A stretch of DNA of 35,952 bases from a virus, in the IMG/VR virus record IMGVR_UViG_3300031857_000638, positions 1 through 35,952 of that record, one strand, 5' to 3'. Of the stretch, positions 1-34,637 are shown in pieces. Position 1 is the stretch's first letter, and every line of letters starts with the position of its first letter. The notes under the pieces were generated by a model. The model searched no databases, was not told where the DNA came from, and saw nothing but the letters and a program-made list of their open reading frames with translations. The position numbers and the translations under genes are program-made.

Positions 1-782
1 TCAGATAATTGTTTTGGTTCGTGGTGTTCAAATGTTTCCCATAACTTTAATAGTTCATCAAAGTCCTGAACTTTATTATAATCCCAATCAGTTAACATAG
101 TTAAGTATGTTCCCAATCTTGCACCATAGATAGCCCATTGTCCGTTCTCAACATCCATGCCTACGTTATGCCATATAGTAAGGTTGTTTAAATTTCGTGT
201 AGCAACATTTTTCTTAAACAAATCTACATCAGGTTTTTGTCCACTAACCAAACACATTTTTACACCTTCACGGAATCCAGCACGCCATGCTTGAAAGGGA
301 GTATAGTTTGGATATGTTGTAGAATAACAATCATACATACTCCAATAAGAACCATTTAAATAATCTAAACAAAAATCAATAGTTGTAGTAACATTACCAC
401 CGCTATTTTCATGCGTTTTCATATTTTTTACATAAGTTTTAGTCCAGCTACTTAAGCCGCCATTGCCATATTGCAATCCATTAATTACATTTCTAGCTTT
501 CCATCGATACTGTGCGTGTTGATAACTTTCGTCCTTATTTGTAAAATCTAATGTTAAGTTAAAAAAATTAAAATCAGGTAAATTATCTCCGTCAATTAAA
601 ATAAATCTTTCTGTATCACTTTCTTCTGCCGCAGCTTTGTGTGCAGCATCACTACCCTTAACTCCGTCAACTCTACGTGCCCAAGGTATCATGTTTTGAA
701 TTTTAACCCAAAATTCTTCTTTTTGTGGTTCATCATAACTTAGGTAAATGCAATCTAAGTCTGCAATATCAATTACGTTCAT
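1..782 (-). CDS. Glycosyltransferase-like protein, C-terminus cut off by window edge
   Basis: An open frame runs from ATG at 780-782 to the left edge without a stop, so about 260 N-terminal residues are visible. Around residues 34-67 there is a pattern I associate with phage GT-A type glycosyltransferases: an IPWARRVDGVKGSDAAHKAA stretch, then an acidic run leading into the hydrophobic strand ILIDGDN with a DxD-like motif at D64-G65-D66. DxD motifs bind the metal and nucleotide-sugar in such enzymes. The start overlaps the end of the upstream 96-aa gene by 14 bases, and I see no Shine-Dalgarno sequence, so translational coupling is likely. It is the last visible gene of a compact group behind the tail-fibre genes. 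The enzyme class is inferred from the motif; donor and acceptor are unknown. Confidence 0.75.
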   Translation of the reverse strand, partial: MNVIDIADLDCIYLSYDEPQKEEFWVKIQNMIPWARRVDGVKGSDAAHKAAAEESDTERFILIDGDNLPDFNFFNLTLDFTNKDESYQHAQYRWKARNVINGLQYGNGGLSSWTKTYVKNMKTHENSGGNVTTTIDFCLDYLNGSYWSMYDCYSTTYPNYTPFQAWRAGFREGVKMCLVSGQKPDVDLFKKNVATRNLNNLTIWHNVGMDVENGQWAIYGARLGTYLTMLTDWDYNKVQDFDELLKLWETFEHHEPKQLS

Positions 783-3943: not shown

Positions 3944-5137
3944 TTACTTAATCACAACAATTGCTGTAACTTCACCGATGCCTTCTGATGTTTTTGTAGT
4001 AAGGCTTCTTCCTATGACATTAAATGAACCTGCTTCGCCGTCTTTTGCTGCTCTTGCATAACCTTTTCCAGCACTAACAAGACGATCACCTTTTTTAACT
4101 TTACCTTTTACTTTTACTGGAACTCTACCACTAATAGCAACTGCAGGGTGTGTATTATCATCTCCTGCTGCACTGTTCATCATATACGCTGCGCTTGTGC
4201 TGATTACTCCAAATACATTATTACTCAATTCATCAACTACCGCTGTGATTTCAGCAACACCGCCCAGTTCAACCACTGTCCCAGCATCGTAAGGTTGATC
4301 CGCTTCAAAACGTTCCGCTAAGTCAGCATATGTAGCTTGCAATCTAGCACTAGGACTAAGCTGCCAAATACCAGTAATATTGCCGCCACCTGCTAACTCG
4401 CTAGTTGTAACTTTGTTAGGTGCAATGTTTCCAGTAAATTGTGTCACTGCATTCGCCCCGGTAAGATAATCGAATACATTTGCATTAGTATAAGTACCAG
4501 CCGGATTAAATGGTACACCATTACCATACATGTACCTATCGCATTTTATACCAAATGAATTAGATGTCCATGATATATTACCATTTTGCATAGTCCAGTT
4601 ACCTTGTGCTGACCATGCCCCTACAATAGTACCACCTGTTGTAGCACCACCTGTTGTAATTGAAGTAGTATTGGCTGATCCTAATCGTGCGACTGTTAAA
4701 TTTGCATTTGCTGCAAATAAATTACCTGTAACATTAGCTGTAGTTACTGTAATTGAATTACCGATTATAGCGTTATTAGATGTAATATTGTTTGCAATGA
4801 TATTACCAGTTGCATTAACGTTAGCTAAGGTTGCATTACCTGCTGCTGTTGTAGATGTTAATGTAATCCAATTACTTGCTACAAGGGTACCATCAGCTGG
4901 ACATATACTTAATGTGTTTGTGGTTGTATTAAACCATAGTTGTCCTCTCAGAGGATTAGGGGGAGGAGAACTTGAGGCATAACTTTCAAGCTGTCTAACA
5001 AAGTTTGTATCTAAAACTTGTCCGTAATTAGACTTGTTTCGTCCAGGAAGTCCCAATGATGTACTATTGGTATTAATTGTACCGTCTTGAATTGTTGTTA
5101 GTACAGTACCGTCGCTTCGTATAATTGTATATGCCAT
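3944..5137 (-). CDS. Tail-fibre protein with repetitive shaft and conserved C-terminal domain (397 aa)
   Basis: The N-terminus (AYTIIRSDGTVLTTIQDGTI, then a LWFNTTTNTL motif near 67-76) is one I associate with fibre proteins of marine T4-like phages and probably attaches to the virion. Residues about 95-165 form a repetitive Asn/Ala/Thr-rich shaft (ANVNATGNIIANNITS and variants). From about residue 268 a compact domain begins with ATYADLAERFEADQPYDAGT and continues with GRVPVKVKGKVKKGDRLVSA. It resembles C-terminal domains of other phage fibres, some of which act as autoproteolytic or trimerising chaperones; that activity is not shown here. The gene has its own late-type promoter right after the 206-aa gene and a GGAG ribosome binding site 9 bases before the ATG. 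Its likely role is host recognition. Confidence 0.85.
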   Translation of the reverse strand: MAYTIIRSDGTVLTTIQDGTINTNSTSLGLPGRNKSNYGQVLDTNFVRQLESYASSSPPPNPLRGQLWFNTTTNTLSICPADGTLVASNWITLTSTTAAGNATLANVNATGNIIANNITSNNAIIGNSITVTTANVTGNLFAANANLTVARLGSANTTSITTGGATTGGTIVGAWSAQGNWTMQNGNISWTSNSFGIKCDRYMYGNGVPFNPAGTYTNANVFDYLTGANAVTQFTGNIAPNKVTTSELAGGGNITGIWQLSPSARLQATYADLAERFEADQPYDAGTVVELGGVAEITAVVDELSNNVFGVISTSAAYMMNSAAGDDNTHPAVAISGRVPVKVKGKVKKGDRLVSAGKGYARAAKDGEAGSFNVIGRSLTTKTSEGIGEVTAIVVIK

Positions 5138-5166: not shown

Positions 5167-5174
5167 TATTTATC
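5167..5174 (-). promoter_or_regulatory. T4-type late promoter (GATAAATA) for the 397-aa fibre gene
   Basis: The minus strand reads GATAAATA, matching the T4-like late -10 element NATAAATA recognised by gp55. It begins directly after the stop codon of the 206-aa gene and leaves a leader of roughly 24 bases, with GGAG in place, before the ATG at 5137. Three other copies in the window occupy equivalent positions before late structural genes. Confidence 0.75.
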
Positions 5175-5947: not shown

Positions 5948-5955
5948 TATTTATC
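5948..5955 (-). promoter_or_regulatory. T4-type late promoter (GATAAATA) for the 48-aa ORF and 206-aa gene
   Basis: The minus strand reads GATAAATA, 6 bases before the ATG of the 48-aa ORF and 8 bases after the stop of the giant gene. With T4 late promoter geometry (the element ends near -6) the start site would be about 5942, immediately before the ATG. The mRNA would thus carry the 48-aa ORF as a leaderless cistron, or as an untranslated leader for the 206-aa gene. Confidence 0.7.
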
Positions 5956-24800: not shown

Positions 24801-25171
24801 GTTAGACTAGTAATTTTTAAAAATCCTTGAGCAGCATTATTTCTTTTTGGATTATAATTTACTAAATTTGCTAGTTTAATTACACTGTCTCTACGTTCTG
24901 CGGTGTCGATAAAATTTTCACGTGTGTTCAGATCATCCCTAAATGAGACAGCCTGACCCATAAATGCAATAACATCTAGTAGTGCTATAAATTCACTACT
25001 CTCAACATAATCATTAAAAGTTTCTGGGTAGTACAAACGCAGGTAATCTATAAAACTTTTTCGCAAAGTTTCATAGTCATAGCTTTGAAAATTTGCTTGA
25101 CTATAGGTTTTATAGACTGTTTTCCAGTCATTCACACCAAAAATTGTTGCCTGTCTTGAACTTGTAGCCAT
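21815..25171 (-). CDS. 6: Baseplate wedge protein gp6
   Basis: An 1118-residue protein matching the gp6 (baseplate J-like) wedge subunit that forms the iris-like ring around the T4 hub. The recognisable N-terminal region is the FIDYLRLYYPETFNDYVESS segment (40-59), followed by the strongly conserved EFIALLDVIAFMGQAVSFRD (60-79), NTRENFIDTAERRDSVIKLA and NLVNYNPKR. The C-terminal part (LNSVTFKPLFGNKASPQLQA; DTFFFSELSAYL) also fits the family. It is much longer than T4 gp6 (660 aa), as I recall for marine relatives, with extra material in the middle. It follows gp25, as expected for partners that interact in the wedge. It has its own late-type promoter at 25190-25197 and an AGAG ribosome binding sequence. 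Confidence 0.93.
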   Translation of the reverse strand: MATSSRQATIFGVNDWKTVYKTYSQANFQSYDYETLRKSFIDYLRLYYPETFNDYVESSEFIALLDVIAFMGQAVSFRDDLNTRENFIDTAERRDSVIKLANLVNYNPKRNNAAQGFLKITSLTTTENVVDINGLGLAGIPVFWNDPANPNWLEQFYSIINATLVDAQRVGRPGNTQEISNIKTEEYSLRIPNTVLPVIPFNATVGGVTMNFEGVSATSLNQTYVYEIPPNPKGTFNILYRNDKLGYGSLNTGFFLYFKQGSLVNYDFTLNQQIANQVVPIGEIQGINNTDTWLYKIDSTNNNLNYWQQVDNLYANTYLREENSRKSVFSVTSRFNDQVNYIFGDGVFSEIPVGSFRAYVRSSNGLQYSIDPAELTNTTLTFSYVSKFNRIETLTMTVELTQPVNNAQSRESIPDIKAKAPVHFYSQNRMVNGEDYNNFPYTLYSSIIKTKALNRSSIGISRNFDLLDPTGKYSSTTSFSDDGALYFNSNDKFYDFNISEASGSANRLFSNQILEIISNRNLYQYYVVTCARYPINVASGDGITTWNQTSYDGTLVTGYFENVAGPVAAGIYSAYNMKYCTPGSLLKFVAPSGYYFLNDRLVAGAAPSINNTFMWVNVLNVVEDGFNGGEGNLYNGLGPVSLSKFVSTGAILETIIPVFDNILPNPILQEVLTYFENLQSFSLYYVNILPVNVNRWFIGSYNRPDALIKFESLGEGAYRITSKAITYYFGSVKNTRFTFDSEKIIFDPLSGTLAYDTVKVLKTNTTPNSLSILGEDFRLNVVGQTVESDGYPDDYAIEVSSLDSKNSSLIDNPDFFTTITGYTFGSTNTSNFVFIETFTDINYLTKNGLTEPTLINYSYGNKNDVEVVKYEFPVGQIFYTYVENKFYKSVADTTSLNIVNLTEVTNYSSQSGRQSLFFQYNHLSNNTTRIDPGTTNIIDLYVVTLAYYTSYNNWIKDTTGTVSEPLRPTVEQLTQEYNKVNDYKMMSDTIVLNSVTFKPLFGNKASPQLQATIKVIKSSLTTASDSEVRAAVITAMNNYFSIDNWDFGDTFFFSELSAYLHSNLDGLISSAILVPKDPSLTFGDLYEIRCAPYEIFVNGAQSNDIVIISAITPEQLQP

Positions 25172-25189: not shown

Positions 25190-25197
25190 TATTTATC
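25190..25197 (-). promoter_or_regulatory. T4-type late promoter (GATAAATA) upstream of gp6
   Basis: The minus strand reads GATAAATA 18 bases before the gp6 ATG, in the 47-bp gap after gp25. A start near 25184 would leave a leader of about 13 bases carrying GAGAT. It probably also drives the giant gene downstream, which has no late octamer of its own. Confidence 0.72.
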
Positions 25198-32575: not shown

Positions 32576-32583
32576 TATTTATC
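32576..32583 (-). promoter_or_regulatory. T4-type late promoter (GATAAATA) for the leftward structural block
   Basis: The minus strand reads GATAAATA 21 bases before the ATG of the 426-aa gene. It fits the gp55-dependent late element and leaves a leader of about 16 bases including AGGAAA. No late octamer was noticed in the short gaps before gp53, the 791-aa gene, gp5 or gp25, so this one probably drives all of them. Confidence 0.75.
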
Positions 32584-32679: not shown

Positions 32680-33576
32680 ATGACAATAACACCTAAAAAA
32701 CCAGTAAATTACCTAAACAACAAAGATATTCTCAAAGAAATACATGCAAGCAAGAACACATACTGCACATATCTAGACAAAACTAGTGATCATAGATATG
32801 ATTTTATAGTAGATATGCCGCATGCTAGTATCGAAGAAAGCCTTAAGTATGCTGCAAAACCTAAAATTATAAAAGAAGCAAAAGAAACTAGAGCAACTAG
32901 ACTTAGCATAGAAACCGGTGAAACAGTAAATCCAAAAAAGATTCCTACTTCTGATTTAGTATTCAGGATAATGACTTGGGATCATATTCCTGTAGCCCCT
33001 AAACAACCTAGAAAAGTAGAAAAGAAAAAATCAGCAAAAGACATATTTGAATTTGAAGATACGATAGAAGATATTTTTGTTGATTTGGATGATCCTACAA
33101 CAAAAGATGAAGTAGACGATATGGTTCATGTTCGTGTCAACTTTCCTCCCTTCCAACATTTTCGCATGGACGAGAACAAAACCTTTCATTGTATAGGAAA
33201 GAGTCACTGGAGTGGTGATTTAAAAACGGGATCATTCAATAAAGATCATGGAAATATAACTGACAAGCTAGCCAGAATGTACATTATGTTATGTGAAAAA
33301 TATGCTATGAAATTTAACTGGCGTGGATACACATATAACGATGAAATGCGCAACAGTGCTATTTTACAGTTGACATATGTTGGATTACGATTTAACGAAG
33401 CCAAAAGTCAAAACCCGTTCGCATATTATACTGCAGCAATAACAAATAGTTTCTGCCGTGTATTAAACAGTGAAAAACGAAATCAAAATATACGTGACGA
33501 TATATTAGAAATAAATGGACTAAACCCAAGCTGGAGTCGTCAAAATAGTGAAGGCTTTTCAACATACGAAGAATAA
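32680..33576 (+). CDS. 55: Late-transcription sigma factor gp55 with long N-terminal extension
   Basis: A 298-residue homologue of T4 gp55, which directs host RNA polymerase to late promoters. The recognisable part is C-terminal: NITDKLARMYIMLCEKYAMK (192-211), FNWRGYTYNDEMRNSAILQL (212-231) and NPFAYYTAAITNSFCRVLNS (245-264), corresponding to sigma region 2-like sequence. The very start (KPVNYLNNKDILKEI, 7-21) also looks like gp55 of marine relatives. Between them lies a long insertion (about 40-185) with a basic linker (KQPRKVEKKKSAKD, 108-121), an acidic-hydrophobic stretch (IFEFEDTIEDIFVDLDD, 122-138) and a conserved-looking HVRVNFPPFQHFRM. T4 gp55 has only 185 residues. No Shine-Dalgarno sequence is visible. 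The GATAAATA promoters in the window are its likely targets. Confidence 0.88.
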   Translation: MTITPKKPVNYLNNKDILKEIHASKNTYCTYLDKTSDHRYDFIVDMPHASIEESLKYAAKPKIIKEAKETRATRLSIETGETVNPKKIPTSDLVFRIMTWDHIPVAPKQPRKVEKKKSAKDIFEFEDTIEDIFVDLDDPTTKDEVDDMVHVRVNFPPFQHFRMDENKTFHCIGKSHWSGDLKTGSFNKDHGNITDKLARMYIMLCEKYAMKFNWRGYTYNDEMRNSAILQLTYVGLRFNEAKSQNPFAYYTAAITNSFCRVLNSEKRNQNIRDDILEINGLNPSWSRQNSEGFSTYEE

Positions 33577-33620: not shown

Positions 33621-34637
33621 ATGACAAATTTATTTAAGAAGGCAGCAGTATTCACAGATATACATTTTGGATTAAAATCAAACAGTTTGCAACATAACCA
33701 AGACTGTGAAAAATTTGTAGATTGGTTTATCTCTCAAGCAAAGATTGAAGGGTGTGAGACTTGTTTCTTCTTGGGAGATTATAACCATCATCGTGCTAGT
33801 ATCAACATTCATACCATGCAATATGGTCTTAAGGCACTGGAGAAATTAAATGATAACTTTGATAGGGTATATTTTATCCCAGGCAATCACGATCTTTATT
33901 ATCGTGACCGTAGGGACATTCATAGTGTTGAGTGGGCTAAACATTTACCGAATGTTGAAATAATTAACGACTGGTATATCACAAAAGATATTGTAATCGC
34001 TCCTTGGCTAGTGCAAGAAGATTGGAAACGATTACAAAAACTTAGCGGTAAATATTTGTTTGGTCATTTTGAATTGCCTAACTTTTTCATGAACGCTATG
34101 GTAGAAATGCCGGATCACGGTGAAATTAATTCTACGCATATGACAGGATTTGAAAAAGTTTTTACTGGGCATTTTCACAAACGTCAATCAAAAAAGAATG
34201 TTTGGTATATAGGGAATGCTTTCCCACATAATTACGCTGATGCAGGTGATGATGCTCGGGGCATGATGATACTTGAATGGGGAGGTGAGCCGGAGTTTCA
34301 TAGTTGGCCAGATCAACCTAAATATCGTGTCTATAAATTAAGTGAAATTTTAGAGAACCCTGAAGGACTACTTTTAAAAGATTCTCATATAAGAGTCCAT
34401 TTAGATATAGATATAAGTTACGAAGAAGCAAATTTTATTCGTGAAACATTAATCCCTAAACATAGTTTACGTGAAATGGCACTCATACCTATGAAGTTAG
34501 ATCAAGTGTCAAATGATGTTAATGCAGGTGAATTAAAGTTTGAATCAGTTGATCAAATTGTATTAGATCAAATTGGTGCAATAGAAAGTGATTTTTACGA
34601 TAAAAAATTGTTGTTGGAGATTTATAGAAACATATGA
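33621..34637 (+). CDS. 47: Recombination endonuclease subunit gp47 (Mre11/SbcD-like)
   Basis: A 338-residue calcineurin-like phosphoesterase that pairs with gp46 to process DNA double-strand ends for recombination-dependent replication and host DNA breakdown. All phosphoesterase motifs are visible: FTDIHFG (D13, H15), LGDYNHH (D53), PGNHD (N89-H90-D91), GHFE (H149) and TGHFH (H184, H186). Its length agrees with T4 gp47 (339 aa). The C-terminal third is the less conserved domain that would contact DNA or gp46. The stop TGA overlaps the ATG of gene 46 (ATGA), implying coupled, equal translation of the two subunits. A sigma70-like promoter sits immediately before the start; there is no ribosome binding site. 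It differs from the late genes in strand and promoter type. Confidence 0.95.
   Translation: MTNLFKKAAVFTDIHFGLKSNSLQHNQDCEKFVDWFISQAKIEGCETCFFLGDYNHHRASINIHTMQYGLKALEKLNDNFDRVYFIPGNHDLYYRDRRDIHSVEWAKHLPNVEIINDWYITKDIVIAPWLVQEDWKRLQKLSGKYLFGHFELPNFFMNAMVEMPDHGEINSTHMTGFEKVFTGHFHKRQSKKNVWYIGNAFPHNYADAGDDARGMMILEWGGEPEFHSWPDQPKYRVYKLSEILENPEGLLLKDSHIRVHLDIDISYEEANFIRETLIPKHSLREMALIPMKLDQVSNDVNAGELKFESVDQIVLDQIGAIESDFYDKKLLLEIYRNI

Follow-up and report, generated by a model that had tools for sequence, protein, structure and literature searches.

Results

The long gp55 and its relatives

The window (the whole stretch of viral DNA that was analysed, 35,952 nucleotides) carries an open reading frame for a long form of gp55, the late-transcription sigma factor. 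Its usual downstream neighbour, gp47, follows on the same strand, and virion genes lie upstream on the opposite strand (Table 1). Nearly the same order, with baseplate and virion genes, gp55, gp47 and gp46, is seen in RaK2, Atu_ph07 and PA5oct. A profile search matched residues 7–290, insert included, to PHROG 12791, a family named 'sigma factor for late transcription', with E = 1.8e-71. The ordinary gp55 family, phrog_234, matches residues 188–289 only (E = 5e-21), and the sigma-R2 homology domain was found with phrog_234, phmmer and VIA-align. The preliminary description of this DNA had set the 298 aa of this protein against the 185 aa of T4 gp55, and had placed a basic linker at residues 108–121 ahead of IFEFEDTIEDIFVDLDD at 122–138; the lengths and both segments are as it described them.

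Table 1. Positions of the features in the window.
Feature	Positions	Strand	Basis
Long gp55, late-transcription sigma factor, 298 aa	32680..33576	+	PHROG 12791 and phrog_234 profiles
H1 of sigma-R2 fold, residues 10–26 (NYLNNKDILKEIHASKN)	32707..32757	+	phmmer, VIA-align, position-specific score
Entire insert, lying between sigma-R2 helices H1 and H2, residues 24–193	32749..33258	+	phmmer, VIA-align
Inserted folded domain, first half, residues 27–108	32758..33003	+	AF2 pLDDT mostly >90; conserved clade-wide
Disordered basic-acidic loop, residues 109–149, window's lineage only	33004..33126	+	AF2 pLDDT ~53–61; length comparison
KKK, residues 115–117	33022..33030	+	conserved in 55–56/59 lineage sequences
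Motif M1, DIFEF, residues 121–125, candidate partner-binding peptide	33040..33054	+	59 lineage sequences
Motif M2, IFVDLDD, residues 132–138, second acidic-hydrophobic motif	33073..33093	+	59 lineage sequences
Inserted folded domain, second half, residues 150–193 (NFPPFQH, SHW)	33127..33258	+	AF2 pLDDT ~95
Sigma-R2 H2–H4 core, residues 194–278	33259..33513	+	phmmer, AF2, VIA-align
C-terminal tail (EGFSTYEE region), residues 289–298, not T4-like	33544..33573	+	column entropy
gp47 (SbcD-like), usual downstream neighbour of long gp55	33621..34637	+	phrog_100, E 3e-64
Late-promoter-like GATAAATA upstream of virion gene	32576..32583	-	
Late-promoter-like GATAAATA upstream of ORF starting at 25171	25190..25197	-	
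Late-promoter-like GATAAATA in intergenic gap	5948..5955	-	
Late-promoter-like GATAAATA upstream of ORF starting at 5137	5167..5174	-	

Alignment with relatives, a check that had been suggested, shows that the insert is common to the full-length relatives, both cultured and environmental. Full-length matches were found by tblastn in 56 phage records, which include RaK2-like and PA5oct-like phages (Paride among the latter), Atu_ph07 and Phosso; 121Q is also among the cultured phages with a full-length long gp55. The match in Salicola SCTP-2 covers 68%, and the best cyanophage and pelagiphage matches span only about residues 166–292. There are 598 relatives in viral contigs, and more distant relatives were gathered with PA5oct and RaK2 as queries. 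The best 80 of the 598 range from ~57% to 100% identity, and the insert is present in these 80, two of which are interrupted by contig ends. An assembly error or a chance open reading frame is ruled out by the relatives that carry the insert in the viral contigs and in the phage records.

The gp55 reading frames of five relatives (L129, L130, L132, L133 and L134) are 621–636 aa long and contain an intein-like insertion. It falls precisely at the conserved sigma-R2 NWRGY/TYLDEM motif (NWRGY^C...GN^TYLDEM or TYVDEM) and gives a weak LAGLIDADG_3 match, along with matches to intein-containing families. L134 is closer to the lineage of the window than the other four.

Position of the insert in the sigma-R2 fold

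Comparison by phmmer with T4 gp55 (7D7C chain F) gives two collinear pieces, residues 6–23 with T4 5–22 and residues 194–267 with T4 40–115. The N-terminal piece is weak alone (1.6 bits), yet it is collinear with the other. A stretch of about 170 residues, a net gain of about 150–165, thus stands where T4 gp55 has 17, and since the two pieces flank the insert, the insert lies inside the sigma-R2 fold. The preliminary description had counted about 145 extra residues before the sigma core; the extra residues are real, but they are within sigma-R2 and not ahead of it. The AlphaFold2 model of the window protein, built from 102 aligned sequences (mean pLDDT 87), aligns with T4 gp55 in VIA-align with Z = 12.6 over 122 residues, 11..292 to T4 10..152. 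This alignment, through T4 residue 152, takes in the helix-loop-helix after R2, which is present in the model as helices 246–278 and 285–290.

When H1 of the long proteins is turned into a position-specific score, the N-terminus of T4 gp55 is located at position 8, with 0 of 1000 shuffles scoring as well, and that of cyanophage S-RIM32 is found too (7 of 1000). The position is correct but the score weaker for HTVC008M (69 of 1000); for the relative L161, the best position is also correct, but 176 of 1000 shuffles are equal to it. Because the score misses the N-terminus in most very short gp55s, the homology of H1 is shown for T4 and S-RIM32 and not for all. Asn-14 of the window protein corresponds to Asn-13 of T4 gp55, which touches the −9 promoter base and whose alanine mutant is impaired (PMC7892883). 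This contact, together with phmmer, VIA-align and the H1 score, makes the N-terminal helix part of the sigma fold.

The model also aligns with sigma70 (6psq_L; VIA-align, 11..266 to 110..447, Z = 9.1, 85 residues, 2.4 Å). The aligned range of sigma70, as judged by its ends, spans the non-conserved region (NCR), and this places the insert in the NCR position. The sigma70 NCR touches promoter DNA at −16/−17 and β′, and is itself contacted by activators, RbpA and GrgA among them (PMC7403470).

The inserted folded domain

The two halves of the inserted domain are predicted to form one compact mixed α/β unit, and the insert modelled alone retains nearly the same elements. The suggestion that the insert is an added domain is thus supported, as it is common to 96 aligned relatives and is predicted to fold. 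Ser-24, Lys-25, Asp-41, Ile-43, Arg-96, His-102, Pro-104, Phe-158, Ser-175, His-176 and Gly-191 are invariant across the 96 sequences. Four residues of the domain, Cys-29, His-102, His-160 and His-176 (window 32764–33207), are nearly invariant, and a metal site or a contact surface is possible.

In Pfam, the window protein has no match, and only scattered weak matches were seen among the members. No sequence relative of the insert was found in the PDB, and no PDB fold match was obtained for the insert alone (Foldseek best E = 1.9; VIA best Z = 2.6). It matches one predicted viral protein of 134 aa, A0A2Z5HHY8 (E = 9e-6, 24% identity). Paralogues of the insert were not found elsewhere in the same genomes, where the phrog_37247 matches are gp55 itself, nor was the insert found in T4, HTVC008M or S-RIM32. 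The literature names the gene in several phages, although we found no description of the insert there; most subscription journals lay outside this search.

The acidic loop and the C-terminal tail

The two halves of the domain are separated by a disordered loop. The gap from HIP to NFxPF is 45–53 residues in the 80 closest sequences (L001–L080), which are the lineage of the window; it is 19 residues in PA5oct-like, 5–13 in RaK2-like relatives and 21 in Atu_ph07. Within the loop, the patterns KKK, D-I-[FLI]-x-F and F-x-D-L-E-D are conserved and the rest is variable. In the 59 lineage sequences, M1 has Asp at 121 in 56, Ile at 122 in 56, then F, L or I, any residue, and Phe (49) or Leu (8) at 125, and M2 has F or L at 133 in 59, D or E at 135 in 59 and Leu at 136 in 57.

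Variability in gp55 peaks in the last ten residues, with a mean column entropy of 2.26 bits vs 0.29 for the core; the insert has about 1.4 and 1.0 bits. The C-terminus, EGFSTYEE, had been described as no obvious match to a clamp-binding tail, and we agree, as it is not T4-like. The annotated late sigma of S-RIM32 also has no clamp-binding C-terminal tail, so such a tail, though usual, is not defining for the gp55 family.

Late promoters

The window has about four times fewer copies of ATAAATA than expected, 7 vs 30 from shuffles. All four minus-strand copies have the form GATAAATA[CT] and fall between genes, in gaps that amount to 3.7% of that stretch; three of the four are 25–36 nt ahead of a gene start. 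In the relative G002, which has 36 GATAAATA sites, 16 precede a conserved ORF by ≤150 nt and 3 fall within one. The T4 late promoter is TATAAATA, and the GATAAATA sites of the window and of G002 are close to this consensus. In CBB, ATAAATA was reported upstream of structural genes (PMC5259590). These putative T4-type late promoters support the presence of a working late sigma.

gp33, gp45 and gp43 in the long-gp55 genomes

gp33 is a fast-diverging protein. No match to phrog_254, which is all that absence means here, was found at E ≤ 10 in nine long-gp55 genomes; the same family is found in T4, HTVC008M and S-RIM32. The CBB authors likewise found no gp33, and they reported no gp45 (PMC5259590). 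In the long-gp55 genomes examined, an ORF of 243–255 aa directly follows gp43, and its scanned members belong to phrog_12062, 'unknown function' (loci L172:4302-5033, L173:4288-5019, L168:2466-3212 and L170:4996-5739). A six-member alignment of this gp45 candidate failed against T4 gp45 alone, but a larger alignment compared with an alignment of gp45 from T4, HTVC008M and S-RIM32 succeeded (hhalign P = 1.4e-5, 180 columns, probability 80). One member matches the gp45 family directly. Because of these two matches, a diverged clamp is probably present; synteny and the weak profile match suggest that the phrog_12062 ORF is probably this gp45.

Two genomes have gp43 split in two ORFs ~2–2.3 kb apart (L167/L168 in PA5oct, L291/L292 in G041); an intron, an intein or a homing element may be the cause. 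In IMGVR_UViG_3300027749_002876 (524,565 bp), two gp43 matches (L218, L261) are near both ends, which may reflect a terminal repeat or a joined assembly.

The C-terminal tails in T4 are SLDFLFG (gp43), SLDFLYEAND (gp55) and TLDFLL (gp33), and the similarity among the three does not hold in every T4-related phage (PMC2988020). The gp43 proteins of the window's lineage end in DDLFTFG, DDLFSFG, DDFFSFG or DSLFSFG. Since gp43 is distant from gp55 and most contigs have one of the two, the pairing rests on four genomes (L020, L026, L033 and L044), in which the gp43 cores DLFTF/DLFSF/DFFSF/SLFSF compare with DIFEF/DIFDF/DIFLF/DLILF in the gp55 loop; the common core is D-φ-φ-x-F. When conserved ORFs are ranked by a profile built on the gp43 tails, the gp55 loop does not stand out: gp55 comes only 40th of 162 in one set and 23rd of 146 in another. 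In the set of 162, D[ILFM]F.F occurs in gp55 and gp43 only, but about 0.9 ORFs are expected by shuffling, and the D-φ-F-x-F pattern was picked after both sequences had been inspected, so this co-occurrence is not proof. Given the low rank of gp55 and the 0.9 ORFs expected by chance, sequence alone does not prove a clamp tether. One spurious short ORF aside, a C-terminal tail like that of gp43 is seen in no other conserved protein.

Discussion

The extra residues of the long gp55 are very likely an inherited insertion in the NCR position of sigma-R2, as judged from the predicted structure and the alignments. We suggest that a folded domain was inserted ancestrally between H1 and H2 in a clade of jumbo T4-like phages. 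By homology, and in view of the promoters, the sigma-R2 core (H1 plus H2–H4) would bind the clamp helices of RNA polymerase and open GATAAATA promoters. The inserted domain, from its position, would most likely sit against the outside of RNA polymerase or the DNA upstream, in the manner of the NCR. A disordered loop of 45–53 residues would then have grown out of the domain in the window's lineage, and the basic stretch and two acidic-hydrophobic motifs of this loop would most likely tether the protein flexibly to a partner.

The phage's own sliding clamp is the leading candidate for this partner, with the loop standing in for the C-terminal motif that is missing and for gp33, which was not detected; the acidic loop may in this way connect late transcription to DNA replication. 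We hold a clamp-tether role tentatively, as the best explanation of the loop. The preliminary description had proposed that the clamp-binding element moved inward, and this is plausible. Conserved islands in a disordered loop, combined with a free C-terminus, are what a binding motif moved inward would look like, and the D-φ-φ-x-F core points the same way, whereas the gp43-tail profile and the loopless cultured relatives speak against it. RaK2, PA5oct and Atu_ph07 combine a long gp55 that has no loop with the lack of a detectable gp33, which means that replacing gp33 does not generally require the loop. That a single protein would combine gp55 with bivalent clamp tethers, M1 and M2, dispensing with gp33 and the C-terminal motif, seems to us unlikely.

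A serious possibility, if short of probable, is that the architecture is right but the loop binds, instead of the clamp, the core of RNA polymerase, a host factor or a phage regulator, for example an anti-sigma or a co-activator not yet recognised. Conserved islands in a disordered loop would suit a short linear motif of any kind, the loop earns no special score from the gp43-tail profile, and the cultured relatives manage without it. Furthermore, the NCR and its sigma2 neighbours are a common docking site, used by RbpA and GrgA (PMC7403470). However, M1 resembles the clamp-binding tails in type, with a D-φ-φ core and a basic linker ahead of it, and the gp43-like tail is, but for the one spurious ORF, otherwise absent from the conserved proteins.

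Could the insert be a fused functional replacement of gp33, which would make the long gp55 the missing natural fused late sigma? Geiduschek and Kassavetis noted that a fused gp55–gp33 late sigma was not found in nature, and engineered gp55–gp33 fusions with an internal clamp motif function in vitro (PMC2988020). The failure to detect gp33 in nine of nine long-gp55 genomes, with which the CBB authors agree (PMC5259590), is in keeping with such a replacement. Nevertheless, we regard it as improbable. Homology to gp33 is rejected, as there is no sequence similarity (hhalign probability 0.04); the insert is mixed α/β, while gp33 is made of five helices (PMC7892883), a comparison by fold class; and the insert is in the NCR position, while a flap-binding domain would be expected downstream of sigma-R2. 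It is likewise very doubtful that the insert only elaborates the structure passively, as many NCRs of primary sigma factors do, and has no clamp or co-activator role: it diverges faster than the core and varies in length, but the clade-wide invariant residues argue for a conserved surface.

T4 late transcription is the standard example of a replication clamp activating transcription. A review asks why no natural fusion of gp55 and gp33 has turned up and in how many phages the link to the clamp persists (PMC2988020). The large clade of jumbo phages described here includes cultured members that infect Pseudomonas, Klebsiella, Escherichia, Salmonella and Agrobacterium. Its late sigma contains an additional domain within the core, and gp33 is not detectable in it. 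A gp55 with an inherited extra folded domain, from which a flexible acidic loop extends in the window's lineage, appears to be a clade-wide design of giant T4-like phages that we did not find described. These are concrete proteins for asking whether the clamp link has been kept, moved or lost.

Compared with T4 gp55, the window protein has the same YVNNK motif in H1, the same sigma-R2 core followed by a pair of helices, and the same type of late promoter. It differs in having about 170 residues between the matched pieces, where T4 has 17, and in its C-terminus, since T4 gp55 ends in the clamp-binding tail SLDFLYEAND and the window protein does not. With T4 gp33 (phrog_254) it would share only the proposed function, a tether between RNA polymerase and the clamp; gp33 is a separate protein with no sequence similarity to the insert and a different predicted fold class. 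The sigma70 NCR is likewise an insertion between region 2.1 and a helix that corresponds to the end of region 1.2, although no similarity of fold was detected for the insert alone (best PDB match, Z = 2.6). The long gp55s of RaK2, 121Q, PA5oct and Atu_ph07 match over the full length and have the insert domain and the same order before gp47/gp46, but the cultured members of PHROG 12791 have 5–21 residues where the window's lineage has 45–53 with the acidic loop.
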